The notes under the pieces: model-generated
The model's database searches: none
What the model was told of the DNA's origin: nothing
Seen by the model: only the letters and a program-made list of their open reading frames with translations
Part shown: positions 14,146 to 48,777 of the stretch, one piece after another
How positions within the stretch are numbered: position 1 is the stretch's first letter
Layout of the letters: each line of letters starts with the position of its first letter
Assembly (NCBI GenBank): GCA_016190895.1
Contig: JACPPR010000077.1
Span: 1 to 52,277 of the forward strand
Length of the DNA stretch: 52,277 nucleotides
Origin: Chloroflexota bacterium
Lineage (GTDB): Bacteria; Chloroflexota; Dehalococcoidia; Dehalococcoidales; UBA2162
Direction of reading: 5' to 3'
Translations under genes and position numbers: made by a program

Positions 14146-14377
14146 TTCCTTCTCTCCTTCAATAATTTTCTTTACTCTTTGGCGAAGTTCTTCCTGTGGG
14201 CTTATAGTCATCACCTCTCAAAATGTTTGCATTTTCTACGTCAGGCACGACAGCCTTAATAGCGCCCGGGTTTCCTCCTGTAAAGGGCACTTGAATGACT
14301 TGATGTTGTCATTATACTTCATCATATCGGAGCCGACTAGCACTCTTTAGCCTGGCAACCAGAGGTTGTAGCAATAG

Positions 14378-16499: not shown

Positions 16500-18323
16500 T
16501 TACGCCGGTAGTAGAAAACTATTCTCCGGTACTGGCGGGACTCTCCTCCAGGCGTCTATGCTATAGGCGTGGGTGCCCATTGGTGAGCCGCCGAATCTGT
16601 CAACGGCTGTTTCCTGTCCGTGGCCGATGATGATGCAGTACGCTTCCGGGCCATCCCCTCCAGCCGGAACCATATAATCATCCGGCAGCTCTCTCCAGTG
16701 CTTGCCCGATGTCTTCTCTATCCCCAACCAGCCATTAGTTATCAAATCACCCATGCCGCGCTGGCGATAGTTTCCCACCGGCACAAAGCTCCTCTTCCAC
16801 ATCCATTCGTAGACAGCTTCTTTGGTCTTAAAGCCATAGTCATACAGGTCTTGGGCTATCTGGGGAGGAACGACCAGGGTAAAACCTCCCTCGCGGCAAG
16901 CCCAGATGTCTTTGGTGAGGAATTCCAGATAGTTGTGCGGACCCGGGATGCCTTTGACATCGAGGAACCTGGCTATGGCGCCGTGACCGGTCCTCTGCAG
17001 AGAGCGATACACACCAGGCAGATGTTCCTGGCCGATGCCCCATGCGCCAGGAGAGAAGGTCATAAGGACGCTCTCACCCTTCTTGAAGCCCTTTTCCTCG
17101 TTCAAGCCTTTCCAGCCCTGCGGCAGTCCCTCGGCATATTCGGCAAAGATAAAGCCGCCGTTAGTAACAGGGTTGCCGTAGGTCAGACCCACACCGACAC
17201 CGGTTACGCTTTCCTTATAGCCGCCGATGTTGCGCCAGATGAGGCTGCCGGCCCGGCCGATGGTCTTATTGGCAGGGTTCCCGGGGCCGAATCTGAGGTA
17301 GCTGACATTCATCCCTAGCTCTCTGTAGACGGGACCGCTGACAACGAAGCCACCGCCCCAACTGCGGCCATCACCGGTGCAGCCACCCGATTCGGCCATC
17401 GCCAGCACCACCGGGAAGTACTCCGGTCTGCAGCCCGCCATCACGGCGTTAATTGCTATCTGTTCTACAGTGGCCGTCATGCCCATGGGCATGAACTTGA
17501 TTACCTCACCTCTCTTCCTGTTCATAGCCGGCGCAAACAGTCCGGCCTGTGCTCTTACCTCAAAGTCGCTTTGAAGGGTTATCAGTTCATCCGGCTTGTG
17601 GCTAGTGCCCTTCAGCATCTCTTCCACCCTTTCCTCGGTGGGCACGACTATCGGCAGACCATCCGTATACATGGCGAATTCAGCATCGAGTATATTCGGA
17701 ATCTTCTCCGTCTGCTGGTAGAATTTCTCGGCCTCGGGAAGAGTACCTTCAAAAAGAATCCTCGGCTGCTCGGGCGCCCATTTGCCGCTCTTCTTCTCTG
17801 CAGCAGTCAGAGGCTTGGTCAAGGCATCAAGCAAGGGTTGCATGACTTTGTCGGCTTCTTCCACTCCACCGGGAGACTTACGGTCGGCTTCTACAAATCG
17901 CAGCTTGGGGATTCCGTATAATACGGAATCATGCTTTATCTTTTCTCTCTCTTCTGTGTAAGAAAGGAGTACCGTCGGGATACCGGATTGCTCAAGGTCG
18001 GCTAAATAAGGCAACTGCCTGTTTACAGCGCCATGTCACCAGCAGACCCCAAGTATCACTGCGTCAGTGGTCTTCCTTTCTTCCTCCGTCAATTCCATTG
18101 GAACGATGTGAAATCTCTTCTTTACCGTCCAGTTGACCTCGGGGAAGTCGTTCTTGAGCCGTTTCTCCAGGGGTACCCAGATGTCTGCCTCACCGCAGAT
18201 ACTCAGATGTATGGTTTTACCGGCGAGAGTATCGAGGCGTGACGCCAGTGGAAACTGGTCCACCGGCTCGTGGTTGCCGACAGGATTGAGACATTTATAA
18301 ACCGCATCGTTCTTAGCTGCCAT
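16500..18323 (-). CDS. UGSC-like selenoprotein 3 (in-frame UGA = Sec96)
   Basis: 607 residues with the UGA at 18036-18038 read as selenocysteine. The ATG at 18323 follows GAGGGGGAACAAA. The context is GVCW-U-HGAVNRQLPYL, identical in the first residues to copy 1 and again with Cys two before Sec. The C-terminal domain keeps TDGLPIVVPTEERV, AVMAGCRPEYFPVVLA and SIDAWR. It has an extra ~14-residue tail (RVPPVPENSFLLPA) that the other copies lack. It is most similar to selenoproteins 1 and 2, forming the CWUHGA subgroup. It faces the acyl-CoA synthetase across a hairpin terminator. Confidence 0.82.
18000..18035 (-). promoter_or_regulatory. Candidate bacterial SECIS, selenoprotein 3
   Basis: AGGC(16-19)/GCCU(24-27) closes an AGUU loop, and UA(11-12)/UA(28-29) pairs below a three-base bulge. 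The first 29 nt are nearly the same as in copy 1. Confidence 0.6.
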
Positions 18324-29189: not shown

Positions 29190-31036
29190 ATGAGCGGGAA
29201 GATTCTCTGGCTGGCAGTCAGCGGTTTGATGGCGCTATCGCTACTGATAGCGGCCTGCGGACCGGCCGCAGCTCCGTCTACCCCGACCACCCCGGCGGCT
29301 CCGGCGACGCCGATCACTACAACTGTCCCAAGTAAGCGGCCGAGGAAAAGGCGCAGAAAGAGGCGGTAGCGCCAGCGGGGGAGACGCCCAAATATGGCGG
29401 CACGCTCAGGATACCCTTGAGCAATGACGTGACACGATTTAGCGCTATCCTGCATACTACGGGAGGTCCGACTATAGACCTGGTGAATCAAGGGCTTTGG
29501 GCGGGTGACTGGACAAAGGGAGCCGCCGGCGGCTCAGGCACCGATGAAACGGACTGGGCCGACAATAACGACCTGCCTAACCTTAAGGCAGGTGTACTCG
29601 CTGAAGGCACGAAGTGGACAATCGATGAGACGAAAAACGAAGGCACAATCGTTTACCAGATTCGCCAGGGTGTGCACTGGGCGCTTAACCCGGCTAGTGA
29701 AGCCAGCCGACTGGTCGCCGGACGGGAACTGACAGTGGAAGACATCATCTTTCACATGAAGCGTGTTACTACAGATACGAAGGCTTATCTCTATGCATCC
29801 GCACCTGAGTTGAGGACGGCCAACATAACCAAGACCGGCCCCTGGGAAGTTACTGTCAAAGTGCCGCTCGACGCAACTATATCAGCCGTAAGCCGCTTTG
29901 GCGATTCAATTCAACTTGAAGCGCCGGAAGTGGTAGCGAAATATGGTATCCAGACTACCTGGAGGGTTTCCGTCGGCACCGGTCCTTTCTTCATTACCGA
30001 TTATATTGCTGGCAGCACGCTAATCCTAGACAGGAACCCGAATTACTGGGAAAAGGACCCGATAGGCCGAGGTAAAGGTAATCAATTACCCTACCTCGAC
30101 CGCGTTCAGTATATCATCCTACCTGACTCATCTACCCGTCAAGCCGCCTTACGGACAGCCAAAATAGACCAGATGACCGGCTTCAGCTGGGAAGACGCTG
30201 CCCAGATGCGGAAGACATCTCCAAACCTGCCTGGACTGGAAACACCCGGTAACAAACTGGAGAACGTAGGGATGAGGACGGATAAGCCGCCCTTTAACGA
30301 CATCCGCGTTCGACGGGCGTTATTTATGGCCACCGATTTCGAGGCGATACTCCAGAGCTTATTCGGCGGCCGTGGGCAAATCCTGACTTTTCCATATTCG
30401 TTCAGCAAGTCAAACGCTCCCCTATACCTCGGACTTGACGACCCTGAGATGCCGGCATCAGTCAAGGAGCTTTATGTTTATAACCCGGAGAAATCAAAAC
30501 AACTCCTCAAAGAAGCCGGCTATGCCAATGGCTTCAAGACCACAGCGCTTATCCCTGCCGCAGACGTTGACGCTTACTCAATTTATAAGGCTATGTGGGC
30601 TAGGGTAGGTATCGACCTGGCTCTCGATGTCAGAGAAGCTAACGTCGTCACCGCCTTACAGACGAGTAAGGAACACGCCCCCTTGACCAGGGCCGGCGGC
30701 GGGTTATCAGGCAAGTTTTTCTCGTTGCCCGTACTTACACCGGGAGCCTTTCCTAACACCAGTATGATTGACGACCCCCTTATTAACGAGGAAACGCAGA
30801 AGATGAGACTGGTCGCTATCACGGATATGCCCAAAGCGATGGTGATGTTCAAGGAACTAACGAAACACATCCTCGACCGGGCTTATGTCCTCCCAGGAGT
30901 CCAGGGTTTCTCGACCACCTTCTGGTGGCCCTGGGTGAAAAACTACTCCGGTGAGACCAATGTTGGCTACTTCGATGCCCGCTGGCCACAGTACATTTGG
31001 TACGACCAAGTCCTGAAGAAATCGATGGGGTATTAG
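29190..31036 (+). pseudogene. Family 5 solute-binding lipoprotein 1, frameshifted
   Basis: The ATG at 29190 (after GAGGAGGG) encodes a lipoprotein signal (LMALSLLIAACGPAA, lipid on the Cys) and a Pro/Thr linker. The frame then runs into a TAG near 29367. A second frame carries AEEKAQKEA, then PKYGGTL and the full extracytoplasmic SBP_bac_5 domain to 31036. The shift lies at about 29325-29345. The rest aligns throughout with binding proteins 2 and 3, ending FWWPWVKNYSGE and KKSMGY. Family members bind peptides or other organic ligands for ABC import. It could be a real lesion or an assembly error; the mature domain is otherwise intact. Confidence 0.8.
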
Positions 31037-31140: not shown

Positions 31141-32895
31141 ATGGCTTCAAAAGATAGGGTTTACAAATGCCTCAATCCTGTCGGCATTCAGGAATCGGTG
31201 GATATGTCCCCTCTGGCGCCGCGTCTCAATACCATTGACGGTAAAGAAATCTGGTTCAGTATCTGCGGCGAGCCGGATATTACCATAGCTCTGGAAAAAC
31301 GTCTCAAGGGTGACTATCCCAACGTCAACTGGAAAACAAAGAAGACCTATCAAACCGCCCCCATTCCCCTTACGCCTGAGGAGATGAAGACCGCTGACGC
31401 GCTGATTCAAGCGGTGGCCTGGTGACCGGGCGCCATCTGGGGGCAGTTGCCCTACGTAGCCAAACTCGAGAAAGCCGGCATCCCGACTGTGGTAGTTAAT
31501 TACGCCGACCAGGATGAATTGGTCAGACAAACAGCCTTGGCCAGCGGACTACCTAATGTCCGTCTGGTTCACTGCTCGCGGACTCTCGGTGGGCCTGAAG
31601 ATGTCGATGCTTTTATCGGACCCCTGGTGGACGCCCTGACCCGTCCCTTGACTAAAAAGGAAAAGGAAAGTGGTAAGTGGGCGCCGCCGCAAGAGAGGGT
31701 GCTTTTCGAAGGCAGCCTTGATGAAGCCGAAACTTTTTACCAGCAGACGAGACAGATTCACTCGCCCCTGCTCAATGCGCCAATTGCCGTTTATACCGAC
31801 GGTCTGCCTGTAAGAATCCCCACCGAAGAGCGGGTGCGGGAGATGCTGACTGGCACCAGCCATAAGCCTGATGAAGTGATAAGTTACCCGCGTGATATCG
31901 GCGGACTTCGAGGTGGCATGAGAAAGAAAGGCGATCCGGTGCGCTTCCAGCCGATGGGTTGGACGGCTACCGTGGAGAAAGTGGCGATAATCGCCGTGAT
32001 GGCGGGGTGTAAGCCGGAGTACCTGCCCGTGGTGCTAGCCATTGCCCAATCGGAGTGTCCCACCGGCACGGCTGGCGCTTGGAGCCAGTGGAGCTGTGTC
32101 AGCGGTCCCATCGCTAAAGAAATCGGGATGAATTTTGAAACCGCCATGCTCGAGCCGGGCAACCCGCCTAACGCGACCATCGGCCGGGCTTACCAGTTGA
32201 TGGCGATTAACCTGGGCGGCGCCGTTACCGGCGTCAACCGCCTAAACAACTTCGGTAGCCCTTTTAACACTGGCGGCGTTTGCTTTGCTGAAAACGCGGA
32301 TGGTTTACCGTCAGGTTGGAAGGGCCTGAACGAAGAGTACGGCTTTAAGAAAAACGAAAGCATTGTTATGGTGATGAACCAATCGGGTGTGCTCAGGACC
32401 GGCAATTTCCCGCCCGGCGGCTACCGGGCGCTGCAGAAGAGCGGTCATGGCGGCATTGCCAGACGTCTCGGCGTCAAGGGCGTGCCAGGCCTGCACAATT
32501 TCCTGGAATATCTCGTCCCTGACATCTGGACCGACCATGACGGCGGTTTCACCTTCCTCATCATTCCCCAGATGGCCAGGGACCTCTATGATTACGGTTT
32601 CAAATCTAAGAATGACCTCTACGAATGGCTCTATAAGAAGAGCTTCGAGCCGTTGGCTAAATACCGCCTACGCGCCGGGCCTGATTTGACCACCAATGGC
32701 TGGATGGGTATCGAAAGGACCTCCGGCAAACCCTGGAAGGAACTACCCGATGACTATATGGTACCGGTTGTCGGTGAGCCTCACGATAACTGTATTATTG
32801 TCTGCGGCGGCACTACCGAGCATATGGAAATGCTTGCCGGCCGTCGTGGCGGTCTATCCCCGCACGCCGTCTATAACATAGACGCTTGGCGGTAG
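31141..32895 (+). CDS. UGSC-like selenoprotein 4 (in-frame UGA = Sec95)
   Basis: 584 residues with the UGA at 31423-31425 read as selenocysteine. The ATG at 31141 follows AAGGAGAGTAAAG. The Sec context is AVAW-U-PGAIWGQLPYV, so this copy lacks the Cys two residues before Sec and belongs to the second subgroup. Conserved blocks are VYKCLNPVG, SICGEPDI, LEKAGIPTV, TDGLPVRIPTEERV, AVMAGCKPEYLPVVLA and NIDAWR. It lies 104 bp downstream of binding protein 1, as selenoprotein 6 lies downstream of binding protein 3. A hairpin terminator follows. The function is unknown. Confidence 0.82.
31426..31461 (+). promoter_or_regulatory. Candidate bacterial SECIS, selenoprotein 4 (covarying pair)
   Basis: GGGC(16-19)/GCCC(24-27) closes the AGUU loop. 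In four other copies the outer pair is A16-U27; here it is G16-C27. Both bases changed together, which keeps the stem. Confidence 0.62.
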
Positions 32896-32995: not shown

Positions 32996-34768
32996 TTATC
33001 GCCAGGCATCAATGCTGTAGACCGGGGACGGGCTGGCGTGGCGGCCGGCAATCTGAGTGCACACCTCTTCGTCACCTCCGGCTACAATGATGCAGTTATC
33101 GAAGGGGTCTCCGATAAGGGGCACTCTATAATCGTCGGGCAGCTCTTTCCAGTGCTTTCCCGAAGTCTTTTCGATACCCATCCAGCCGTTTGTATTGAGG
33201 TCCGGCCAGGAGCGATTTCTGAAGTCTCCCAGGGATTCGAAGGCTTTATCGTATAGCCACCGATAAATATCTTCCTTGGACTTGAAACCGTAATCATACA
33301 GATGGCGGGCCATCTCCGGCACCATAATGAATGTGACACCACCCTCGCGCCCTGCCCAGAGGCTGGATGAGAGGTATTCAAGCCAGTTATGCGGGCCAGG
33401 CGTGCCCTTAACGTCTAAGCGCCTGGCCAGGCCGCCGTGTCCGCTCTTCTGGAAAGCACGGTAGCCACCGGGAGAGAACTGGCCGGCTCCGAGCAGGCTG
33501 CTGCCGTTCATCACCATAACCACGCTCTGGTCTTTTCTGTATCCATACTCTTCGTTCAGACCTTTCCAGCCCGGGGGCAGGCCGTCCGCATTTTCGGCGA
33601 AACAGGTGCCGCCGCTGTTAAACGGGCTGCCGATAGAGTTCATCCGGTTAATCCCCGGCACCGCTCCCCCCAGGTTGATTGCCATCAACTGATAAGCGCG
33701 TCCGATGGGCATATTGGCCGGGCTACCCGGATCGAGCAGGCCGATGCCGGAGTTCATTCCAATCTCCTTGGCATATGGACCGCTGACGCAAGCCCACTGA
33801 CTCCAGGCGACGGTGGTACCCGTCGGGCAGGCTGATTCGGCGATAGCCAGCACTACGGGCAGGTGCTCCGGCTTGCACCCGGCCATGACTGCGATAGTCG
33901 CCACCTTTTCCACAGTGGCGGTCCACATCATCGGCTGGAAGAACACCGGGTCGCCCACTTGTCTCTGCACTTTGAGGCCAACGGTGCCGGTAATATCGGA
34001 TTGGAAAGTCGTTGCATCGGCCTGATAACTGATTATCTCGTCAGGTCTATGGCTGGTGCCCTTTAGCATTTCCTTCACCCGTTCCTCGGTAGGAACGCGT
34101 ATTGGGAGGCCGTCCGTATAAATGGAGATGGGAGCGTTGAGTGGGGCCGGGATGTGCCTTGTCTGCTGATAAAAGGTTTCGGCTTCATCGAGGGTGCCTT
34201 CGAAAAGAACCCTCGGTTGCGGCGGCTCGTAGCGGCCCACGTCTTTTTCCTTCTTGGTCAGGGGGCGGGTCAGCGCATCGAGCATCTCCTGGGCGAAAGA
34301 ACTGACATCTTCGGGGCCGGGAAGTGTGCGGGAAGCGTGGATAAATCGCACGTTAGGAACGCCGTTGGTCAGGGCGGTTTGCTTGAGCATCTCGTCCTGG
34401 TCGGCCAGATCGATTGTTACTGTCGGAATACCCGCTTTCTCAAGTTCGGCTACGTAAGGCAACTGCCTCCATACGGCATTGCTTCACCATACCACGCCCT
34501 GTATCAAGGCGTCGCAGGTCTTTCGTTCCTCTCCGCTAAGCGGCACAGGCAGAGAGAGATAGGTCTTCTTCACCTTCCAGTTGACGTCCGGATACTCACT
34601 CTTGAGGTGCTTCTCGAGGGCAATGGTTATGTCCGGTTCTCCGCAGATGCTGATGTAGATTTCTTTGCCGTCGACTTTATCCAGGCGTGGCGCCAGCGGG
34701 AACAGTTCCACTCCCTCCTGGATTCCGACTGGATTGAGACACTTGTAAACCCTGCCATTTTCAGCCAC
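32996..34768 (-). CDS. UGSC-like selenoprotein 5 (in-frame UGA = Sec95)
   Basis: 590 residues with the UGA at 34484-34486 read as selenocysteine. The GTG at 34768 has AGGAGGATCAGA before it. The Sec context is GVVW-U-SNAVWRQLPYV, the most divergent of the six, with no Cys two before Sec. It keeps VYKCLNPVG, SICGEPDI, LEKAGIPTV, TDGLPIRVPTEERV, AVMAGCKPEHLPVVLA and SIDAWR. It lies 31 bp downstream of an AprB-like ferredoxin, which in turn is 12 bp downstream of an AprA-like flavoprotein. This is the tightest gene linkage of any copy and suggests those proteins supply or take its electrons. Confidence 0.82.
34448..34483 (-). promoter_or_regulatory. Candidate bacterial SECIS, selenoprotein 5
   Basis: Best of the six: CGUA(9-12)/UACG(28-31) forms a lower stem. 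A three-base bulge (13-15) follows, then AGGC(16-19)/GCCU(24-27) around AGUU. This is close to the E. coli fdhF architecture of bulge below a short capped stem. Confidence 0.65.
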
Positions 34769-34799
34769 TCTGATCCTCCTGAATCATATTAGTTGCTGG

Positions 34800-35018
34800 T
34801 TAGACAAGCATGGAAGCGGGGAAAACGTAGCTTATCGCTCCGACCGGGCAACTTATCCGGCAATTTCCGCAATGCCAGCATTCCTCGGGATAGCTAACTA
34901 CCGGCCTCTTTTTCGCCGTATCCGTCTGTATTATGTCCCCGGGACAGTGCATCTCGCACTGAAAGCCCTCGTATGTAACGCAGGAACAGCATTTCTTATA
35001 ATCTATTACTGGTGGCAT
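34800..35018 (-). CDS. AprB-like 2x[4Fe-4S] ferredoxin subunit
   Basis: 72-residue iron-sulfur protein. Cysteines 10/11, 13, 21 and 25 (CCSCVTYEGFQCEMHCPGD) and 47, 50, 53 and 57 (CWHCGNCRISCPVGA) can bind two cubane clusters. The widened spacing between the second and third Cys of the first site, and the Trp in the second, recall the beta subunit of adenylylsulfate reductase, though it is much shorter than AprB. It lies 12 bp after the AprA-like gene and 31 bp before selenoprotein 5. It probably passes electrons between them. Confidence 0.82.
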   Translation of the reverse strand: MPPVIDYKKCCSCVTYEGFQCEMHCPGDIIQTDTAKKRPVVSYPEECWHCGNCRISCPVGAISYVFPASMLV

Positions 35019-36854: not shown

Positions 36855-37425
36855 TCAGGGCATTGCTGTTTTTGCGGATAAAGTCATAAACTCTGAGACT
36901 TGTCCGTCATCTCCAGCATGGATAACGAAAGGCTCTGTCTGGCGGCCAGCCATTCCCGGTGCCCCTGAAGGCATCCCCGGTAAGACGATTCCATCTATGG
37001 CGGGCCTTTCTTTCAGCAATTTAACTACCGCTTCGACCGGAACTGACCCTCGACAAAGTAACCGCCGACGACGATAATATGACAACTCCGCATCTCCTGT
37101 GGAACCGGGTATTTTTCTCTTAGAGGATTGCGTACATGATATAACTACCTTCGACTTGAAAACCTGCATTTTCAAGATAGGCCATATATTGGGAACAGCA
37201 CTTACATCCCGGCAGTTTATAAACTGTAAGTGGAATGAGAGCCGCCGGCGGATTGGCGACAGTAGTTTTCACGTTAGCAGCTGTTGGCGTGCTTGAACAA
37301 CCAAGCAGAGCTAGAGCAGCTATGAGGGCCACAGTGACGGTAGTGGCTCTAAATACGCCCGGCGCCTGCTTAACTAAACGAGAGGTAACGTCTAAGCTAA
37401 GAGAATTAGCCAATAACTCCCTCAT
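36855..37425 (-). pseudogene. DUF411 metal-binding-like lipoprotein, two frameshifts
   Basis: Three frames together encode a DUF411 protein. The N-terminal part (37425 to ~37122) has a signal with lipobox ALLGCSS and the motif VYKLPGCKCCSQYMAYLENAGF. A short middle part near 37040-37125 reads REKYPVPQEMRSCH and VVGGYFVEG. The C-terminal part reads SVPVEAVVKLLKERP, VLPGMPSGAPGM. Two indels (near 37122 and 37050) break it. DUF411 proteins are small periplasmic proteins linked to copper or other metals. The start overlaps the last 20 bp of CoA transferase A. Confidence 0.75.
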
Positions 37426-38575
37426 TTACCAGTTCGGCGATGTCTTCGTTTGACAGGCCAAGGATATCTTTGAATACATAATCGTTATGTTCGCCTAATA
37501 GCGGGCCTCGCCGCAGTTCATAGGGTGTTTTTGATAGTAGAAAATGAGGCCCGGGAGGGGCACGGTATTTTCCCCCTCCGCCCGGACGGTCAAGCTCCCG
37601 GAAGAAGTTGCGGTACTTCAGGTGAGGGTCTTTGTCCATCTGGTCTTCAATCGTCTCTACCGCCCCGGCTGCCACGCCGGCTGCCTGCATCGAGTTCATC
37701 ACCTCTTCCGCCGGGCGGTTAATTGTCCACTCACTTACCAGTTTGTCCAGTTCCTCTTCATTGTCCTTTCGGGCGAGCACAGTGCTGAACCTGGGATTCT
37801 TGGCCAGCGCGGGATTACCGATAACTTTACAGAAGCTCTGCCACTCCTCGTCCGTGAATACGGCAATGGCACACCACCTATCCTCGCCTTGACAACGATA
37901 GGCGTTATGAGGGGCAGCACTAGCATATTTATTCCCCATGCGGTTGGCTACCTGCCTATTGACCACACAATCAAGGATAGCGGGGGCCATGAATTGTGCG
38001 CCAGCTTCACACTGGGACATATCGAGGTATTGTCCTTTGCCCGTCTGACTCCGGTATTCAAGAGCAGCCAGAATAGCGATAATGTTATAGCGGGGGGCGA
38101 CGAAATCGGTATATGGGCCCACCCATCCCGGCTCACGGTCCGGCCAGCCCGTAATCTGATTAATGCCTGTTAAAGCTGCCAATTGGTGCCCGAAGGCGGC
38201 ATGGCTGGCGTATGGTCCCGTCTGCCCTTGCATGCAGGAACTGAGCATGATGATATCGGGCTTGATTTTCTTCAGGTCTTCATAGCCCAGTCCCCTTCTA
38301 TTCAGTGTTCCGGGAGCGTGGTTTTCTACCACAATATCGGATTGGGCAACCAATCTGTGAGCTAACTCTAATCCTTTTGGAGAAGTAAAATTAAGAGTAA
38401 TACTGAGTTTACTGGTGTCCGTGTGCGAAAGATTAACTGCGCCACCCCTGGCTCTACCCCTTGTTTCAATCTTAATTACCTCGGCACCAAGGTCAGAGAG
38501 TCCCTTGGTGGTTAGAGGACCGGTAACGAACGTGGTGACATCGACAACTCTTACGCCCCCAAGCAGTTTGCCCAT
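37406..38575 (-). CDS. CaiB/BaiF (class III) CoA transferase A
   Basis: 389-residue family III CoA transferase, moving CoA between carboxylic acids. Motifs are VRVVDVTTFVTGPLTTKGLSDLGAEVIKIE (named region), VVENHAPGTLNRRGLGYEDLK, SSCMQGQTGPYASHAAFGHQ, the catalytic Asp region PYTDFVAPRYNIIAILAAL, and C-terminal PLLGEHN. It lies 25 bp downstream of CoA transferase B, third of a three-gene run. The substrates are unknown. Confidence 0.9.
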   Translation of the reverse strand: MGKLLGGVRVVDVTTFVTGPLTTKGLSDLGAEVIKIETRGRARGGAVNLSHTDTSKLSITLNFTSPKGLELAHRLVAQSDIVVENHAPGTLNRRGLGYEDLKKIKPDIIMLSSCMQGQTGPYASHAAFGHQLAALTGINQITGWPDREPGWVGPYTDFVAPRYNIIAILAALEYRSQTGKGQYLDMSQCEAGAQFMAPAILDCVVNRQVANRMGNKYASAAPHNAYRCQGEDRWCAIAVFTDEEWQSFCKVIGNPALAKNPRFSTVLARKDNEEELDKLVSEWTINRPAEEVMNSMQAAGVAAGAVETIEDQMDKDPHLKYRNFFRELDRPGGGGKYRAPPGPHFLLSKTPYELRRGPLLGEHNDYVFKDILGLSNEDIAELVNEGVIG

Positions 38576-38600
38576 CTTCTTCTCCTTTTTATGAGCTTGC

Positions 38601-39845
38601 CTAGATAACCCCGCCTTCTTTCAGTATCACCAATTGTTCTCTTGTGATACCTAACTCCTTCTCGTAAATCTCCTGATTATGTTCCCCGATAAGCGGAGCA
38701 CGGCGTGATATCCTGGGGGGAATCTCCGAAGAGATGCCAAAGCCACCGGGGTAGGTAATTCTGATACCTAGTTCAGCGTGCTCCACGTCTACCCAGAATT
38801 CTCTGGCGATAAGCTGAGGATTTTCTAGCATGTCAGCAGTAGTGGCTACGGGGTAGAGCATAATCTGGCGCATTACAGCCCCATCGAGAAGCTCGGCTTT
38901 AGTGTGAGACATAAAAAACCGGCCGGTCGGTTCCTCTATTTGGTCAACGACCTCCTGAGGCGCTTGGGCAAAATCAGGTCTATTCCAATCGAAGCCCTTT
39001 ACCACATCGTTTGTAAATCCCTCGCTCTCCATCCACCCGACAAGTGGTAAGCCGGGCGTGTTACCACCGTAAGCCCAGGAGACCCAACCATCCTTGCAGG
39101 GCCACAATTGTTTTGCCTTGTGGGCAGAATTCGGAGACTCGTGTCCTCGCCACTGGAGAGGGGTCTTCCTTATATCCCAAGCAGTTGTAGTAGAGATGGG
39201 AGTATTTTGAGCGGCAGACTCAAAGATTGAGACATCAACCTGCTGTCCCTCACCTGTCTTCCGCCTGTGGTAGAGCGCAGCCAATGCTCCCATAGCGCCA
39301 TCGGCTCCCGTATGAAGGTACGCCTGGGAATGATGGCTTATCCGAACCGGAGGACGGTCGATATCGCTAAACAGCGCCATCTCTCCCCCCATTGCCCAGG
39401 CGACGATATCGGCTGTCTTCCAGTCTCGATAAGGGCCTGTCTGCCCAAAAGGAGTAATTGAAACCAGAATTACCGCGGGATTAATTTTCTCCAGGGCAGA
39501 GTACCCCAGACCAAGCGTATCCAGGTAGCCCGGCGGAAAGGACTCGATGACGAAGTCAGCATTCTTGACCAACTTCTTGAAGATTTCCTTGCCATCGGCC
39601 GACTCGATATTTAGGGTGATTCCCCGCTTGCTCGTATTCAGTGCAAACCAGAAGAGGCTCTTTTCCGGGTCAGGCTCGTTATGATAGAAGGGGCCTATGC
39701 TCCGTGCCGGGTCACCAGCCGGCCTCTCAATCTTGATGACATCGGCGCCCAGGTCTCCCAGTATTTTACCGCAGAGCAGCCCTTTCTCATCCGTCAAGTC
39801 CAGGGCTCGGTACGGCCTGAGCATACCCTCTCTCTTATCTGCCAT
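38601..39845 (-). CDS. CaiB/BaiF (class III) CoA transferase B
   Basis: 414 residues with the same fold and order: YRALDLTDEKGLLCGKILGDLGADVIKIE (region), VIESFPPGYLDTLGLGYSAL, SITPFGQTGPY, the catalytic Asp region HTGADGAMGALAALYHRR, and PLIGEHNQEIY. It lies between copies A and C (gaps 25 and 60 bp). Divergence from its neighbours suggests a different acyl donor or acceptor, not a recent duplication. Confidence 0.9.
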   Translation of the reverse strand: MADKREGMLRPYRALDLTDEKGLLCGKILGDLGADVIKIERPAGDPARSIGPFYHNEPDPEKSLFWFALNTSKRGITLNIESADGKEIFKKLVKNADFVIESFPPGYLDTLGLGYSALEKINPAVILVSITPFGQTGPYRDWKTADIVAWAMGGEMALFSDIDRPPVRISHHSQAYLHTGADGAMGALAALYHRRKTGEGQQVDVSIFESAAQNTPISTTTAWDIRKTPLQWRGHESPNSAHKAKQLWPCKDGWVSWAYGGNTPGLPLVGWMESEGFTNDVVKGFDWNRPDFAQAPQEVVDQIEEPTGRFFMSHTKAELLDGAVMRQIMLYPVATTADMLENPQLIAREFWVDVEHAELGIRITYPGGFGISSEIPPRISRRAPLIGEHNQEIYEKELGITREQLVILKEGGVI

Positions 39846-39905
39846 TCTTTTCTGTCCCCTTATAGAAATACCTTTGTGGCTTCTTAAATGATTACTTCTG
39901 TTAGT

Positions 39906-41123
39906 TTATAGAATGACCCTTTGCTGTTTTAAAACGGCAATATCTTCCCAGCTATATCCAAGTTGCAGAAGAACCTCTTCGGTATTCTGGCCTATTTCAG
40001 GCGCTGGACCTCTCACTGCCGCAGGATTCTGCCGGAACTTAACCGGGCTGGCTACTACCTTCATCTGCCCATCGGGATGATTCAAGTCGACAAAAAAGTC
40101 ATTGGCCAAGGCTTGAGGGTCAGCGATAACCTCGTCAGGGGTCTGGATCCGGCCATAGATGCAACCTTGTTCCCGAAGGCGTCGCTCCCATTCTTCTCTA
40201 TTCTTGGAAGCGAAAATGTCATCGAGAAGGCGAATCAGTTCCTGGCAATTTTCTCTTCGTTTGCTCATGTCGACAAACCGAAGGTCATTTTCCAGTTCCG
40301 GTCTTTCTATGGCTCGACAGACATTGGGCCAATATGCGTCGGACTGGGTCATTCCGAGCTGAAGCCACCGGTCGCCCTTAGTACGATAGCTGTTCCATAT
40401 GGGATTTTGCGCCTTGGTGCGGTCATCTTTGTTCGGTGATGTGCCTACAAGAGCGCTCTCGATATCAACGGCAAGAGTCCACACCGCAGAATGATATAAA
40501 GAGAATTCTAGCTCCTGTCCTTTACCCGTCTTCTCCCTATGTAGCAGCGCAGCCAAGACACCAGCGACGACATGCGGTGCGGCTGTTCTGTCGCCCATAC
40601 CTCCACGCTGCGCAGGCGGGGGGCTTCCCGGTTCGCCTATCAAATACTGCATGCCGGAGCGAGCCCAGGACGCGGTATTATCAAAGCCTGGCTCGTCTTT
40701 ATCAGGTCCCACCGTACCATAACCGCTAAGAAAGGCATAAATAAGTCCAGAATTGATCCGGCTAAGAGTGTCATAGTCCAACCCGAGTTTCTGAATTGCA
40801 TCTAGCTGATAGTTAGACATGAAAACGTCAGCCCCTTTGATAAGTTTATAAAAGATGTCTCTACCCGAGTTCTTTTTCAGGTCCAGCGCTAGACTCTTCT
40901 TGTTCCTATTGATTAGTTGGACTCCCCAATTCACTTCAGTATTACCGAGTCTTGTTGTTCTGCCAGCCCCGCCGGCCCTCCCTGTCCCACGATACATGTC
41001 CCCGGTTAGAGGTTCGACTTTGAGCACCTCAGCTCCCCAGTCAGCCATCCAGACACTAGCAGCTGGAATTGCCACCATATGCTCAACGGCAACTACCTTT
41101 AAGCCTTCAAGTACACCTGACAT
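39906..41123 (-). CDS. CaiB/BaiF (class III) CoA transferase C
   Basis: 405 residues: LKVVAVEHMVAIPAASVWMADWGAEVLKVE (region), VFMSNYQLDAIQKLGLDYDTL, FLSGYGTVGPDKDEPGFD, the Asp in GMGDRTAAPHVVAGVLAAL, and the C-terminal IGQNTEEVLLQLGYSWEDI. It is first of the three and starts 20 bp downstream of binding protein 2, which suggests that uptake and activation of one ligand are co-expressed. Confidence 0.9.
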   Translation of the reverse strand: MSGVLEGLKVVAVEHMVAIPAASVWMADWGAEVLKVEPLTGDMYRGTGRAGGAGRTTRLGNTEVNWGVQLINRNKKSLALDLKKNSGRDIFYKLIKGADVFMSNYQLDAIQKLGLDYDTLSRINSGLIYAFLSGYGTVGPDKDEPGFDNTASWARSGMQYLIGEPGSPPPAQRGGMGDRTAAPHVVAGVLAALLHREKTGKGQELEFSLYHSAVWTLAVDIESALVGTSPNKDDRTKAQNPIWNSYRTKGDRWLQLGMTQSDAYWPNVCRAIERPELENDLRFVDMSKRRENCQELIRLLDDIFASKNREEWERRLREQGCIYGRIQTPDEVIADPQALANDFFVDLNHPDGQMKVVASPVKFRQNPAAVRGPAPEIGQNTEEVLLQLGYSWEDIAVLKQQRVIL

Positions 41124-41142
41124 CTTGTCCTCTCTTTGTGAT

Positions 41143-43005
41143 TTAGTAACCCATCTTTCTTTTCATCTCCTGGTCTATCCAGACCCACTGAGACCAGCGT
41201 ATGTTGATGTAACCCATAAATTGTTCACCGGAGTAGTTCTTTACCCAGGGCCACCAGAAAGAGTAAGTAGGGGCACTCGGGACCGGGATGGCGTACACCT
41301 GATCGAGGATATAGTTCATAATCAGGTCTCTCATTAACCTCTCGGCTTCGACTATATCTGTATTAGCAGCTTTTCGTACATTTGCCATTGATTTGTCGAT
41401 GAAGGGGTCGTGAATATTGGAGACGTTCGGGTAACCTTCCCCAAAAAACGTTGGTAATGTGTAAAATGCGCCATAGGGATTCCAGCCACTAACCGTCATT
41501 GATTCGTGTTCATTCTTGTTAACTATCGCCGATATGGCGCCAGCCTCCCTGATATCAAGCCTCAGTTCAATGCCCACCTTAGCCCACATATCCTTATACA
41601 CCGAATAGTAATCGGCCTGGCTTGCAGTTAAAAGTACTGAGGTCTTGAACCCGTTGGGATAACCGGCTTCTTTGAGTAACTGCTTCGCTTTCTCGGGATT
41701 ATAAACATAAAGCTCTTTGACAGATGCCGGCACTTCCGAACTACTAGGGTCGACATAGAGCGGTGCGTACGCCTTCGTATAATTAAACGGGAAAGTATTG
41801 ATTTGACCGAGACCACCATTCAAATTCTTGCGTATTGATTCCAGGTCGATGCTCATAATCATCGCACGGCGAACCCGGACATCATTAAAAGGCGGTTTGT
41901 CTATCCGGATGTGGGTAGGTCCGCCCTGGGCCGGGACTTCTATTTCCTTTAGCGAAGGATTCGTCTTCCTCATCTGGGCGGCGTCTTCCCAGTTTAAGCC
42001 ATAGCCGGCGAACAGTGTGTCAAGCTTGCCTGTCCGCAGGGCAGCTTGCTGAGTGGATTTGTCGGGTACGATGAGAAACCTGACGCTATCAAGATATGGC
42101 AGCTGGTTACCCTTGCCTGGACCTACTGGGTCCTTCATCCAGTAGTTTGGGTTCTTGGTGAAAACTATCTGGCTACCAGCAACATAATCAGTAGGCATAA
42201 ATGCACCGGTACCAACGGCATTTTTCCAATTGTCCATGTTACCGTATTTCTTTATCACCTCTTGTGGCTGGATACCTGTTGAATCACCAAAACGGCTTAC
42301 AGCTGTCACCAGTGCATCAAGCCGAACTTTAACGGTAACCTCCCGAGGCCCGGTTTTAGTCAGGGTAGCAGTCCTCAGCTCGGGATTGGTTTTATAGAAA
42401 TAAGCTCCGGTGTCAGTAATGGTCCGATTCAAGTGGGCGATAACATCGTCCGCTGTTACTTCCCGCCCATTGACCAGACGGCTGGCTTCGCTAGCAGGAT
42501 TAAGAGCAAAGCGCACTCCAGGGCGAATCTGGTAAGTAATAGCTCCTTCAGCCTTACTTTCATCTATCGTCCACTTAGTGGCCTCAGCGACATAGCCTGT
42601 CTTGAAGGCAAAAAGGTCATCGCCGCGTAGGGTCCAATCGGTCTCACTGGTGCCATAGCCTCCAGCCGGCCCCTTTGCCCAGTCACCTGACCAGAGGGGT
42701 TCGACAGCTAAGGTGACAGGAGAAGCTCCGGGAGGACCCCAAATAGTATCGAATCTGGTTATGTCACCACTTACGAGGGTGGTAAGCGTTCCGCCATATT
42801 TGGGTGCCTCAGCGGGGGGCTTCAACGTCTCTTGCTGTGGTTTTTCCTCTACCGGTGCAGTTGGGGTAGTTACAACAGTTGGCGTGGTCGGGCTGGTTGT
42901 GGTGGCCGGGGTGGTCGGGGCTGTTGCAGGAGCACAGGCTGCCATCACCAGGGATAGTACCATTAGGACGCTCAGCACCAGCCATAGAATTTTCTTGTTC
43001 ATCAT
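41143..43005 (-). CDS. Family 5 solute-binding lipoprotein 2
   Basis: 620-residue exported lipoprotein. The signal is MNKKILWLVLSVLMVLSL then VMAACAPA, with lipid attached at that Cys. A long Thr/Pro linker follows, then PKYGGTLTTL and the SBP_bac_5 domain (VRFALNPASEASRLVNGREV, PPFNDVRVRRAMIMSID, YNPEKAKQLLKEAGYPNGFKT named as regions). The C-terminus WWPWVKNYSGEQ, RKMGY is shared with the other two copies. It binds an unknown organic solute outside the membrane. No ABC permease or ATPase gene is adjacent. Confidence 0.9.
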   Translation of the reverse strand: MMNKKILWLVLSVLMVLSLVMAACAPATAPTTPATTTSPTTPTVVTTPTAPVEEKPQQETLKPPAEAPKYGGTLTTLVSGDITRFDTIWGPPGASPVTLAVEPLWSGDWAKGPAGGYGTSETDWTLRGDDLFAFKTGYVAEATKWTIDESKAEGAITYQIRPGVRFALNPASEASRLVNGREVTADDVIAHLNRTITDTGAYFYKTNPELRTATLTKTGPREVTVKVRLDALVTAVSRFGDSTGIQPQEVIKKYGNMDNWKNAVGTGAFMPTDYVAGSQIVFTKNPNYWMKDPVGPGKGNQLPYLDSVRFLIVPDKSTQQAALRTGKLDTLFAGYGLNWEDAAQMRKTNPSLKEIEVPAQGGPTHIRIDKPPFNDVRVRRAMIMSIDLESIRKNLNGGLGQINTFPFNYTKAYAPLYVDPSSSEVPASVKELYVYNPEKAKQLLKEAGYPNGFKTSVLLTASQADYYSVYKDMWAKVGIELRLDIREAGAISAIVNKNEHESMTVSGWNPYGAFYTLPTFFGEGYPNVSNIHDPFIDKSMANVRKAANTDIVEAERLMRDLIMNYILDQVYAIPVPSAPTYSFWWPWVKNYSGEQFMGYINIRWSQWVWIDQEMKRKMGY

Positions 43006-43122
43006 TACCTCTTTCTTACCTCCGCTTATTTGGGAAACCTATTTCTATGAAATGTTTTCCCATGCCGAAAGCAATTATCGCCAGCATGGTTTAATCATCG
43101 TTAGGTAGAAAACCAAATGGGG

Positions 43123-44841
43123 CTAAGCATAAGGATTCTCTAATCTGACATCTATTAGCGCTGGTTTACCATTTCGCACCTGGGCAAGCCCATCTTTTAA
43201 GGCTGGCACTAAGTCTGATGGGTCCTCTACTGTGCGCCCCCAGGCACCACAGCCTTGAGCAATTACAGCGTAGTCAGGGGATGGTGAAATGTCTATACCC
43301 TCCCAAACGCCGGTCTTTTCCGAGTAGCTATCTTGACCGTATCCGCCTTGGAGGCTTGCCCTTATAGCATTGTACTGCCGGTTGTTGTATATGACGGATA
43401 AGAATGGAGCCTTGTAGACACCGGCCCCCCAAAGAGTGGCGATAGGACAACCAAAGACGAAACCTCCGTCTCCCATTAAGCTTAAGACCGTCTTGTCCGG
43501 GGCAGCTAACTTGGCTCCCAAAGCTGCTCCAAGAGGAAATCCCAGGCTAGCTCCGCCGCTACCGAACAGGGTGGCTGGCTTGTTTCGGGTTATGTTCCGT
43601 AAGCTCACCATCTCATGTAGGACAATGGTATTCTCATCGATTACTTCATTCACACAGTAACCGACCCACTCCGGAGAAATTGGCTTCTGATTTGCTTTAG
43701 CCAACGCCGAAGCTCGTTGCCTCTCTCGGGCCTGTTCATTTGAACTTTGTACCTGCTTAAACCGGGCTTGAGAACGGGTTTGCTGGCCCGGCGTCATCTT
43801 CCGGCGAATTATCTCATTCAAAGCAGGTAGCGCTTTGCTGGAATCGGCATTAATGAAAACATCCCCGGGAAAGACCCATAAGGGTATATCCTGCTTGATT
43901 GGGTCGATGCTGATGTGAATTATCTTGGCATCTGGCTTGGGTTTAGCCGCGCGAGGAATATAAGGTGTATCAGAATCAACCAACAGGATGGCATCGGCCT
44001 CCTGGAAGTATGGCTTAACAAAGCTGCTGCTACAAAGAGGATGGTTGCTGGGGAAATTCATCCTCACCATATCGGGCACCACTAATGCCCCTAAACTCTC
44101 CGCCAACTCTATAAGCGGCGTCACCGCTTGAGTATTTCTACCTGTATCCCCAACGATGATTAGAGGTTTTTCAGCCTGCAAGAGCATATCGGTTATTTCG
44201 GCTAGTTTGGTAGCATCAGCTTGTGGAGTCACCGCAGCAGCGTGTTTGGTTCTATCAGGAATAGTGACACCCTTAATCTTCTCCATAAGCAGCTCCCTCG
44301 GTAAGGTAAGATAGACCGGGCCGCACGGCTCGGTAGTGGCAACCTGAAAGGCACGCTGCATCACATGGTGAATACTGGCATTGCTGCGTAACTCATAGTC
44401 CCATTTTACGTAACCGCGTACTGTCCCTGCCTGGTCGAATTGCTCCTGTATCCATTGTATGCCCACCGAGCGTTCGCCTCGTATGTTCTGGTCGAAGTTT
44501 GAAGGAGTTCGTCCCGCACAGAAAATAACGCCTATTCGCCCGCGCTGAGCATTATGCAAGGCTCCCCCTGCTTGCAGCGTGCCGACATCTACATGTACCA
44601 GTACCACCTGGGGCCGTCCGGTGACCATGAAGTACCCATGAGCTGCAGCCATTGCTACGGACTCATCGAGGCATAGTATTACTTTCGGGGCGCGCTTGCC
44701 CAAGGCTCTAAACTTAGACAGAGCCTCCTGGATAGGAAAGGTGTCGGTACCGGGGTTCAGAAATATGTACTCTACCGCGTTGGCACTGAGTAGCTCTATA
44801 AAAGCTTCTGCGCCTTCATCGACTGGTATTATTGTCTCCAC
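43123..44841 (-). CDS. Thiamine diphosphate-dependent enzyme (acetolactate synthase / 2-oxoacid decarboxylase-like)
   Basis: About 572 residues with the three ThDP-enzyme domains. The N-terminal Pyr domain has FLNPGTDTFPIQEAL and the activating Glu in CLDESVAMAAAHGY. The middle domain has EKPLIIVGDTGRN. The C-terminal PP domain has the cofactor motif LMGDGGFVFG ending in VIYNNRQYNA. GTG 44841 was preferred, as AGAAAGG lies 7 nt before it; a GTG at 44883 without such a site is the alternative. Family members decarboxylate or carboligate 2-oxo acids or 2-hydroxyacyl-CoAs. With three CoA transferases downstream, an acyl-CoA substrate is plausible. Confidence 0.85.
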   Translation of the reverse strand: METIIPVDEGAEAFIELLSANAVEYIFLNPGTDTFPIQEALSKFRALGKRAPKVILCLDESVAMAAAHGYFMVTGRPQVVLVHVDVGTLQAGGALHNAQRGRIGVIFCAGRTPSNFDQNIRGERSVGIQWIQEQFDQAGTVRGYVKWDYELRSNASIHHVMQRAFQVATTEPCGPVYLTLPRELLMEKIKGVTIPDRTKHAAAVTPQADATKLAEITDMLLQAEKPLIIVGDTGRNTQAVTPLIELAESLGALVVPDMVRMNFPSNHPLCSSSFVKPYFQEADAILLVDSDTPYIPRAAKPKPDAKIIHISIDPIKQDIPLWVFPGDVFINADSSKALPALNEIIRRKMTPGQQTRSQARFKQVQSSNEQARERQRASALAKANQKPISPEWVGYCVNEVIDENTIVLHEMVSLRNITRNKPATLFGSGGASLGFPLGAALGAKLAAPDKTVLSLMGDGGFVFGCPIATLWGAGVYKAPFLSVIYNNRQYNAIRASLQGGYGQDSYSEKTGVWEGIDISPSPDYAVIAQGCGAWGRTVEDPSDLVPALKDGLAQVRNGKPALIDVRLENPYA

Positions 44842-44991
44842 GAACTGCCTTTCTGCCGAACTTCCGGCTGGTATAATCAACACATTAACTTAGCTGGATA
44901 TTTTGTGTCGGTTTCCACTGGAGGCCGACCCACCGGAGTTTTGAAGTTCCTCCGGCAGCAAGCTTCCAGTACCCGAGACGATTTCGTGACG

Positions 44992-46764
44992 CTACCGCCA
45001 AGCGTCGATGTTGTAGACAGAGGCTGAAAGGCCCCGGCGTCCGGGGAGAAACAATATGTGCTCAGAAGGCCCACCGGCAACAATTATACAGTTGTCAGTG
45101 GGACTGTTACCTCCGACCGGCACCATATAATCATCAGGCAGTTCTTTCCAGTGTTTCCCTGAGGTTCTTTCTATCCCCATCCAGCCATTAGTGGTTAAAT
45201 CAGGCCCAGCACGAAGCCGATATTGCTTCAGCGGCTCAAAACTTTGCTTCCAAAGCCATTCGTATATCGCGTCCTTGGACTTAAAGCCATAGTCGTACAG
45301 GTCTTTAGCCATCGTGGGAATGATTAACATAGTATAACCACCCTCGTGGCTAGCCCAGAGGCCGGGGATAATGTATTCCAAGAAGTTATGGGGTCCAGGC
45401 GTGCCTTTAACGTCGAGGCGTCTGGCTATCCCCCCATGACCGCTTTTCTGAAGCGCCCGGTATCCGCCCGAAGGGAAGTTACCAGTCTTGAAAACGGTGC
45501 CTCCGGTCTGGACCAGGACAACACTCTGCTCCTTCTTGAAGCCGTACTCTTCATTTAGGCCTTTCCAGCCCGGTGGCAGGGCATCTACGTTCTCAGCAAT
45601 GCAGGTCCCACCCGAATTGAAAGGACTGCCAAAATTATTCAGGCGGTTCACTCCTACCATAGCCCCACCAAGATTGAGCGCCATAATCTGATAGGCGCGG
45701 CCGATGGGCATATTGGCAGGGTTCCCAGGCTCAAACATGCCTTGTTCACAGTTTATCCCTATTTCCTTGATGATGGGGCCACTGACACAGACCCACTGGC
45801 TGGCAATACCAGCAGTACCAGTAGGGCACTCCGATTCGGAGATGGCTAGTACTACAGGCAGGTGTTCCGGCTTACAGCCGGCCATTACGGCGATCGTGGC
45901 CACCTTTTCCACGGTAGCTGTCCAGCCCATGGACTGAAAGTGCGCCACCTCACCCTTCTTGCCTGTTATCCATTCTCCCATCGTGGTATCCCGCTGCGTC
46001 AACATCAGATTAGACTGGCGGGTTATCACTTCATCCGGTTTGTGGCTGGTGCCAGTCAGCATCTCGCGTACCCGTTCCTCCGTGGGCTCTACTATGGGGA
46101 GACCGTCTGTATAGACGCAGACGGAACCATGCAATAGTGGAGAGGACACTTTCCTTGTCTGCTGGTAAAACTTTTGAGCTTCATCTAAGGTACCCTCGAA
46201 CAGTATTCGCGGCTGCGGTATTTCCCACCGTCCGCTCTCTTTTTCCTTCTCAGTCAGGGGGCGAAGCAGGGCATCAACCATAGGCTCGATGAAGCTGTCG
46301 ACATCAGCCGGCCCGGCGAGGGTACGCGAAGAGTGAACAGTTCGTATATTAGGAATACCGCTGGCCAGCGCGTAATCCTTGACCATGTCTACCAGGTCTG
46401 GGAAATCGACAACTACTGTCGGGATACCTGCTTTTTCAATCTCCGCTACGTAAGGCAACTGCCTCCAGATAGCATCCGGTCACCATGCCACCGCTTGTAT
46501 TAAGGCATTACAGGTTTTCATCTCCTCATCCGACAACGGGACCGGAGTGGTCTGATATGTCTTCTTTACTTTCCAGTTCACATTAGGATAATTGTTCTTC
46601 AACTGTTTCTCTAACGGTATGGTAATATCAGGTTCACCACAGATACTAAACCAGATTTCCTTGCCGTCCAGGGTGTCAAGACGGGGTGCCAGAGGAATAA
46701 TGTCCACAGCCTCTTTAATGCCAACGGGGTTGAGAAATTTGTACACCGTATCTTTCTTTGCCAT
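44992..46764 (-). CDS. UGSC-like selenoprotein 6 (in-frame UGA = Sec95)
   Basis: 590 residues with the UGA at 46480-46482 read as selenocysteine. The ATG at 46764 follows AAGGAGAGATAACA. The Sec context is AVAW-U-PDAIWRQLPYV, closest to copy 4. The usual Cys in VYKCLNPVG is Phe here (VYKFLNPVG), so that Cys is not essential. Other blocks hold: SICGEPDI, IEKAGIPTV, TDGLPIVEPTEERV, AVMAGCKPEHLPVVLA, NIDAWR. It lies 168 bp downstream of binding protein 3 and 150 bp upstream of the ThDP enzyme on the same strand. Confidence 0.82.
46444..46479 (-). promoter_or_regulatory. Candidate bacterial SECIS, selenoprotein 6
   Basis: AGGC(16-19)/GCCU(24-27) around AGUU, with a lower stem GCUA(7-10)/UAGC(32-35) separated by an internal loop. 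Confidence 0.6.
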
Positions 46765-46932
46765 TGTTATCTCTCCTTAGATTATTTTAGTTACCTTGTA
46801 ATTGGTAGCTTTTCCTAGATAAATTGCTCTCCTTTCAGTTCGGATTGACTTTGCCAATTCCATCCACATTGCCTCTTCCTTTAACAAGCCAGCAACACAT
46901 CGAATAGCACACAGCCCGGCTGGTCTTTGCAG

Positions 46933-48777
46933 CTAATACCCCATAGACCTTTTAAGCTCTTGGTCTATCCAGACCCACTGAGGCCAGCGAGCATCAAAGT
47001 AGCCTACCGTGGTCTCACCTGAGTAGTTCTTTAGCCAAGGCCACCAGAAAATGCTCGAATAACCGCTGACACCCGGGATGGCGTATGCCTGGTCAAGGAG
47101 GTATTTCGTCATTTCCTTAAACATCCCTCTGGCTTTTAGCATGTCTGTAAGAGCTACTAGCCTCTGCTCCGACTGTGACTTAATAATAATGGGGTCATTA
47201 ATCATACCGGTGTTCACCAGGCTTCCCGGGGCCAGCCAGGGCATCGCGAAAAACCTGTCGAGACAACAACCGTCGTTGCCGCTTCTCGTTACAGGGGGAT
47301 GTTCTTTCTTCGTCTGTAATGATGTGTAAGTACCACTCTCCCTGACCATAAACTCCAACTCGACGCCCACCTTAGCCCACATATCCTTAATTACCGAGTA
47401 GTAATCGACCTGTGCAGTGGTCATGAGCGCCTGGGTCTTGAAGCCATTAGGATAGCCGGCCTCTTTCAGAAGCTGCTTTGCCTTCTCGGGGTTGTAAGCA
47501 TAAAGTTCCTGAACTGTTGCCGGCGCCTCTTCAAGGGGAAGATACATGGCTTCGTATCCTTTGATTAACCTAACTGGGTAGGTATGGAATTGCCCTCGAC
47601 CGCCGAATAAGCTCTGGAGAATCGCTCTAAAATCGGTCGCCATCATCATCGCCCGGCGCACCCGGACATCGCTAAAGGGTGGCATGTCCGTCCTCATAGC
47701 TATGTTTCCCCATGAGCTATCGGGCGCTTCCAGTTCCAACAACGCCGGAGTCGTCTTCCGTAGTTGGGCAGCATCTTCCCAATCAATGCCCGCCATCTGG
47801 TCAATCTTACCTGTCCGCAGGGCAGCTTGCCGGGTAGATGCGTCAGGTATTATTAGGTATTGAACACGGCTGAGGTAGGGTAGCTGGTTACCCTTGCCCG
47901 GACCTATCGGGTCCTTCTCCCAGTAATTTGGGTTCCTCTCCAGAATCACCGTGCTGCCAGCCACGTAATCAGCGACGTAGAATGGCCCGCTGCCGACGGA
48001 AAGTTTCCAATTAGTCTGTCCACCATATTTCTCTACCACCTCCGGCGGCACTAATTGTGTTGAATCGGTAAGACGCTGTATGCCCGTTATCAGAGCCTCA
48101 AGCGGCAGCTTGACTGCAACTTGCCAGGGGGCAGTCTTGGTTATATTGGCAGTTCTTAACTCCGGATTAGACCCGTAGATATAAGCCTTAGGGTCAGCGG
48201 TAACCCTCTTTAACATGAAGACGATGTCATCCGCCGTTATTTCCCGTCCGCCGACCAGACGGCTGGCTTCACTAGCTGGGTTAAGAAAGTAATGTATCCC
48301 CTGTCGAATCTGGTACACAATAGTTCCTTGGTTTTTCTCAGTGTCGACTGTCCACTTCACGCTCTCGGCGAGTAGGCCCACCTTGGTATCAAAAGTGTCA
48401 TACTGGGCTGCCCAGTCTGTCTCATCGGTGCCATAGCCGCCGGCGTGTCCCTTAGTCCAGTCGCCTGCCCAGAGCCCCTGATTCACTAGGTCGATAGTAG
48501 GACCCCCGGTAGTATGTTGAATAGCATCAAAACGTATTACATCCTCGCCCAGGGAGAGCATCAGCGTGCCGCCATATTTAGGTACTACTTCAATGGTGAG
48601 TTTTACAGCATCTTGCTGTGGTTTTTCCTCTACCGGGGTAGTTGGAGTAGCTGGAGCAGCCGGAGCAGTTGGTGCAGTTGGAGCAGCCGGAGTACTCGGG
48701 GCTGCGGGACCGCAGGCCGCCAACACCAGGGTTAACACCATAACGAAACTGACCACCAGCCATAGGAGTTTCCGCAT
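46933..48777 (-). CDS. Family 5 solute-binding lipoprotein 3
   Basis: 614-residue exported lipoprotein. The signal is LLWLVVSFVMVLTLVLAACG, with lipid at the Cys. An Ala/Pro/Thr linker follows, then PKYGGTLMLSL and the SBP_bac_5 domain. The sequence HTTGGPTIDLVNQGLWAGDW is shared almost exactly with binding protein 1, which groups 1 and 3; copy 2 is more distant. It is first in the long minus-strand cluster, directly before selenoprotein 6. The ligand is unknown. Confidence 0.9.
   Translation of the reverse strand: MRKLLWLVVSFVMVLTLVLAACGPAAPSTPAAPTAPTAPAAPATPTTPVEEKPQQDAVKLTIEVVPKYGGTLMLSLGEDVIRFDAIQHTTGGPTIDLVNQGLWAGDWTKGHAGGYGTDETDWAAQYDTFDTKVGLLAESVKWTVDTEKNQGTIVYQIRQGIHYFLNPASEASRLVGGREITADDIVFMLKRVTADPKAYIYGSNPELRTANITKTAPWQVAVKLPLEALITGIQRLTDSTQLVPPEVVEKYGGQTNWKLSVGSGPFYVADYVAGSTVILERNPNYWEKDPIGPGKGNQLPYLSRVQYLIIPDASTRQAALRTGKIDQMAGIDWEDAAQLRKTTPALLELEAPDSSWGNIAMRTDMPPFSDVRVRRAMMMATDFRAILQSLFGGRGQFHTYPVRLIKGYEAMYLPLEEAPATVQELYAYNPEKAKQLLKEAGYPNGFKTQALMTTAQVDYYSVIKDMWAKVGVELEFMVRESGTYTSLQTKKEHPPVTRSGNDGCCLDRFFAMPWLAPGSLVNTGMINDPIIIKSQSEQRLVALTDMLKARGMFKEMTKYLLDQAYAIPGVSGYSSIFWWPWLKNYSGETTVGYFDARWPQWVWIDQELKRSMGY

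Follow-up and report, generated by a model that had tools for sequence, protein, structure and literature searches.

A definition of the bacterial SECIS is difficult to draw up, as sequence is shared by few of the known examples. The bSECISearch consensus describes a loop of 3-9 nt, a stem of at least 4 bp, an early loop G followed by a U, and a spacing of 16-37 nt (PMC13188914), and the SECIS of Escherichia coli fdhF has an upper hairpin with U17, G23 and U24 (PMC8659212). On the protein side, the UGSC domain has been suggested to be thioredoxin-like, and the GOS survey reported a UGSC/Unknown_1 fusion in which UGSC is joined to a conserved domain of unknown function (PMC2398784). Among the bacterial selenogenomes that PMC12013277 cites, the largest holds 43 genes, and neither Chloroflexi nor Chloroflexota is mentioned in the reviews PMC13188914 and PMC9312934.

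The window analysed here, a stretch of 52,277 nt, corresponds to contig C61 in a draft genome of 2.09 Mb with 79% completeness. It contains six genes, each about 590 codons long and interrupted by a single in-frame TGA about 95 codons in. The proteins of copies 2 to 6 share 51-75% identity with that of copy 1. The six putative selenoprotein genes and the TGA of copy 4 are located as follows.

2033-3796, minus strand: copy 1, UGSC-type gene; Pfam UGSC (PF24696) at 31.5 bits and a full-length family match
12400-14151, minus strand: copy 2, UGSC-type gene; family match, start codon tentative
16500-18323, minus strand: copy 3, UGSC-type gene; full-length family match
31141-32895, plus strand: copy 4, UGSC-type gene; Pfam UGSC at 28.9 bits, AlphaFold2 pLDDT 87.6
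31423-31425, plus strand: predicted Sec-UGA of copy 4; 584-aa frame otherwise open, column common to 53 relatives
32996-34807, minus strand: copy 5, UGSC-type gene; family match, start codon tentative
44992-46764, minus strand: copy 6, UGSC-type gene; full-length family match

Both Pfam scores arise from the N-terminal part of the protein and exceed the cut-off of 25 bits, while scores of only 21.8 and 24.6 were obtained against NF041046, whose cut-off is 125 bits. Like UGSC proteins (PF24696, NF041046), these proteins align their Sec with the U of UGSC; unlike them, they have lost the resolving Cys of U-x-x-C and have an extra C-terminal domain of about 400 aa fused to them. Where NF041046 has its U-x-x-C redox motif, the 53 related sites mostly read U-[HSPT]-G-A, with no Cys at +3. 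The fusion resembles the GOS UGSC/Unknown_1 proteins in joining UGSC to a second domain, a likeness that concerns the described architecture. The AlphaFold2 model of copy 4 (m664c36c1d80a) has two separate domains. The N-terminal one is alpha/beta, with a generic receiver/Rossmann architecture in which Sec opens a helix following a strand; the other comprises about 400 residues. In Foldseek and VIA-align searches the N-terminal domain matched generic alpha/beta folds only (best Z 9.9), and the C-terminal domain had no clear match (best Z 4.1). Residues 31-174 of copy 4 are predicted to adopt a receiver/Rossmann-like fold and not the thioredoxin-like one proposed in PMC2398784. A redox or nucleophilic role for the Sec would be likely. 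Genes for oligopeptide-type solute-binding proteins lie among the copies (29417-31036, 41143-43005 and 46933-48777), together with three CoA-transferase family III genes and one TPP enzyme; the surroundings of the copies (29417-31036 and 37406-48777) look like a catabolic region. Rfam at its gathering threshold detected only tRNAs in the window.

The comparative analysis drew on 53 distinct UGA sites from three genomes, all of them draft MAGs. The window's own genome contributed 23 copies with one TGA each and has one further partial copy; the other two genomes with the same family, its closest named relatives to carry the gene, are the MAGs Dehalococcoidia W403 (18 copies) and Dehalococcoidales ARS79 (12 copies). 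Each of the 53 genes has one UGA, always in the identical alignment column, and in full-length copies the family match runs to the C-terminus. When 156 genomes of the order were searched, full-length copies turned up in these three only; among 393 genomes drawn from the class, a sample that lacked W403 and ARS79, only the window's own genome yielded any full-length relative. A model of the element picked out all 53 sites and no others, with no match in genome G005. A single 2.1-Mb genome is predicted to have no fewer than 23 paralogous genes for selenoproteins of the same divergent UGSC-type family, and this paralog-rich setting is more unusual than the hairpin itself.

The initial annotation had placed a SECIS-like hairpin in 31426-31461, which is the stretch of 36 nt after the copy 4 TGA; the hairpin proper occupies 31441-31452. 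The corresponding candidate SECIS hairpins of the six copies are given below.

3482-3493, minus strand: copy 1, AGGC-AGTT-GCCT (TGA 3509-3511)
13836-13854, minus strand: copy 2, predicted 7-bp stem with bulged C and loop AGTT (TGA 13867-13869)
18009-18020, minus strand: copy 3, AGGC-AGTT-GCCT (TGA 18036-18038)
31441-31452, plus strand: copy 4, GGGC-AGTT-GCCC (TGA 31423-31425)
34457-34468, minus strand: copy 5, AGGC-AGTT-GCCT (TGA 34484-34486)
46453-46464, minus strand: copy 6, AGGC-AGTT-GCCT (TGA 46480-46482)

The sequences confirmed that in five of the six copies nt 16-27 past the UGA pair into a stem of 4 bp capped by AGUU, that copy 4 has G16-C27 where copies 1, 3, 5 and 6 have A16-U27, and that all six use TTG for Leu. 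Copy 2 (GCGC-AGTT-GCCG) had been credited with one broken pair; two in-register pairs, 16-27 and 17-26, are in fact lost, and the sequence refolds as the 7-bp stem listed. The 12-mer NGGCAGTTGCCN occurs five times in the window, each time exactly 15 nt past one of these TGAs. For the copy 1 sequence alone a different fold is predicted to be favoured, with hairpin pair probability near 0. A comparable hairpin can be formed at 10.6% of the codon positions within these genes; a single hairpin is therefore cheap, and the weight of the argument rests on the comparative tests.

Measured against the published description of bacterial SECIS elements, the hairpin falls within its limits. The loop is AGUU at 51 of the 53 sites and GGC (or AGGCU) at the other two, within the range of 3-9 nt. 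A G is one of the two leading loop bases, with a U after it in AGUU, and stands where the initial annotation had considered it to be needed. The UGA-to-loop spacing is 19 nt (20 in two copies), inside the 16-37 nt range. Forty-three stems are contiguous in register and two are re-registered at 8 bp, within the 4-16 bp expected of an upper stem; the remaining eight sites have a bulge or mismatch, and two of these (L031 and L052) have a poor stem. The minimum free energy of the UGA plus 36 nt is at or below -7.5 kcal/mol at 53 of 53 sites, the minimum-energy fold not always being the hairpin. The in-frame UGA is followed by a conserved frame in 53 genes, and SelA, SelB, SelC and SelD are present in the window's own genome. 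This agreement supports the reading, in our estimate almost certainly correct, that the hairpin would serve as a compact bacterial SECIS to which SelB binds, with UGA decoded as Sec. Compared with the bSECISearch consensus, the stem lies at the lower length limit in most copies and the element is uniform over 12-23 paralogs per genome. Like the fdhF element it has a small upper hairpin whose loop contains a G-U step; unlike it, it has no bulged U17 and a loop of 4 nt against 6. By our count from the UGA, the loop G lies at most one nucleotide from E. coli G23.

The true SECIS might be larger, with a conserved lower stem of which the 4-bp part is only the tip, an arrangement that we regard as possible and rather unlikely. 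The initial annotation had described lower stems in copies 5 and 6, and both exist (GCUAU/GUAGC in copy 6, a different one in copy 5), although neither is conserved across the 53 relatives. Tried as a conserved element, the copy 6 type is 76% paired over the 53 rows, with outer pairs G-C and C-G; however, in 27 of these rows the middle pair (columns 12-36) does not form, and the lower stem is not established because its best pairs, the outer ones, stem from two conserved Ala codons.

Codons +6 to +9 occur in nine combinations: AGG CAG TTG CCT (30 sites), GGG CAG TTG CCC (10), GAG CAG TTG CCC (5), GAG CAG TTG CCT (2), AGG CAG GCT GCC (2), and one site each of GGG CAG TTG CCT, GCG CAG TTG CCG, GAA CAG TTG TTC and GGA CAG TTG TTC. 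Gln is invariant and Leu-Pro nearly so, and a lone 4-bp hairpin is common by chance, so that the hairpin could be imagined as a mere by-product of the conserved peptide Arg/Gly-Gln-Leu-Pro with no role of its own. The free synonymous positions are nevertheless fixed: Leu +8 is TTG in 51 of 51 cases, Arg +6 is AGG in 32 of 32, and CCT follows every AGG-CAG-TTG. These stem codons are not the common choices: the share of AGG among Arg codons is 20%, that of TTG among Leu codons 13%, that of CCT among Pro codons 19% and that of GGG among Gly codons 13%. When the protein was kept and synonymous codons were redrawn 2000 times by each genome's own usage, the exact 4-bp stem, observed at 43 of 53 sites, was expected at 2.7 (maximum 9). 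Of 361 codon windows along the gene, +6 to +9 had the largest excess of synonymous identity (0.53, where the mean was 0.089 and the sd 0.062), about seven standard deviations over the gene mean, and the single columns +8 and +6 ranked first and second of 517 for synonymous constraint. Shared descent alone is insufficient as an explanation, since synonymous identity elsewhere is near the codon-usage expectation (mean excess 0.09). A second constrained window near codon +146 looked on inspection like ordinary codon bias.

Across the 53 genes of the three genomes the stem positions were found to covary rather than to vary independently. AGG at +6 before Gln-Leu-Pro is accompanied by Pro CCT in 30 of 30 cases and GGG by CCC in 10 of 11, an association with a Fisher p of 1e-8 when kinship is ignored. 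Changes on both sides were seen in three of the four pairs (20 cells against 7.9 in shuffles), slid registers gave less pairing than the true one, and pair 16-27 had the top mutual information among all column pairs of nt 1-50. On a protein tree built without the hairpin columns, nt 16 changed at least seven times, and nt 27 followed nt 16 in 4.6 of 5 independent supported pairs on average and never went the opposite way (median p 0.06); five pairs are unable to reach 0.05, and the tree-based test therefore supports covariation and does not decide it. The strongest single cases are amino-acid changes that preserve the RNA shape. In L030 and L078, where Leu-Pro has become Ala-Ala (RQAA; Tyr-Arg-Gln-Ala-Ala-Tyr, encoded by TAT AGG CAG GCT GCC TAT), the stem is re-registered to 8 bp with a GGC loop. 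In two other copies (EQLF and GQLF) the GAA or GGA at +6 pairs with UUC at +9; L080 (GAA CAG TTG TTC) has A-U at both middle pairs. In L083 the stem is lengthened to 7 bp. This rebuilding of the stem where the peptide differs, together with the synonymous evidence, renders the by-product explanation very improbable. The seven GAG copies have one in-register mismatch, A17xC26, and five of them can pair over 6 bp if one A is bulged out. This A sits two pairs beneath the loop, at a position similar to that of the fdhF bulge. RNAalifold gave no consensus structure on all 53 rows and the expected fold on subgroups; its failure on the full set is probably due to dilution by the A17xC26 mismatch of the GAG copies and by mixed pair types.

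That UGA is instead a sense codon (for example Trp or Cys), read through a code change or near-cognate read-through, with the hairpin acting for example in pausing, finds some encouragement in the Trp codon that precedes UGA at 52 of 53 sites and is scarcely credible given a single UGA per gene in a constant column that lines up with Sec in the UGSC relatives, the use of TGG for Trp elsewhere in these genes, and a genome that encodes SelA, SelB, SelD and a tRNA-Sec with anticodon UCA.

This machinery is consistent with the SECIS reading, which covariation, synonymous constraint and re-registered stems also support. Contig C76 carries selD, selA and selB together with the tRNA-Sec; the SelB has SelB-wing_2 and SelB-wing_3, and these C-terminal winged helices can be aligned, over the final 80 residues, with the solved SelB chains 1wsu and 2uwm. 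We propose that the UGA about 95 codons into each mRNA would be decoded as selenocysteine. With its C-terminal winged helices, SelB carrying Sec-tRNA-Sec would hold the stem-loop that lies 15 nt downstream and recognise the AGUU loop closed by C19-G24, with G21 followed by U22, and it would deliver Sec as the UGA enters the A site. The stem codons (AGG or GGG, CAG, TTG and the matching CCT or CCC) would be held by selection for RNA shape within the limits set by the protein.

The 12-23 UGA-containing paralogs per draft genome suggest, with somewhat better than even likelihood in our judgement, that a small Dehalococcoidia clade has undergone a lineage-specific burst of one apparently undescribed selenoprotein family, which lost the resolving Cys and uses one minimal, uniform SECIS. 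If so, few expansions of a selenoprotein family within one bacterium would be as large, and the burst would constitute a natural mutational series of one SECIS read by one SelB. The 53 sites indicate what selection keeps, namely the pairing, the offset of 15 nt and an AGUU loop closed by C-G, while the bases and even the register vary. They could be used for training Chloroflexota SECIS models, they flag genes that would be truncated at UGA by annotation pipelines, and they point to a selenium-heavy metabolism in uncultured Dehalococcoidia.

Beside its 18 family copies, W403 has about a dozen UGSC-type fused genes predicted to encode selenoproteins (L089-L100), some in tandem, and also relatives with Leu or Ser instead of Sec. 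Many sister selenoproteins (UGSC, UDGC, USTC, UPGC) have hairpins with GUC, GGUC or AGUU loops at spacings of 16-24 in other codon frames, and four non-Sec relatives that were checked showed no comparable hairpin. Sisters of the form UG[SA]C[TM]KYL from within the order (L090, L120-L123, L125, L126, L134 and L138) read AAG TAC CTT G[TC]G TAC past the UGA and have a candidate 4-bp GUAC hairpin at spacing 18, with Tyr always TAC and Leu always CTT; it is an atypical candidate SECIS because there is no G in the first two loop positions. Two equal-scoring tRNA-Sec matches at contig ends (L001 on G000:C76 and L002 on G000:C84) are probably one gene in an assembly overlap. The selD gene (G000:C76:7825-8748; L107-L110 in four genomes) is itself a predicted selenoprotein gene: it has an in-frame UGA, followed by a 5-bp hairpin, AGGUC-CGGGU-GACCU, with G at loop position 2; in three relatives the loop is CGGGA.
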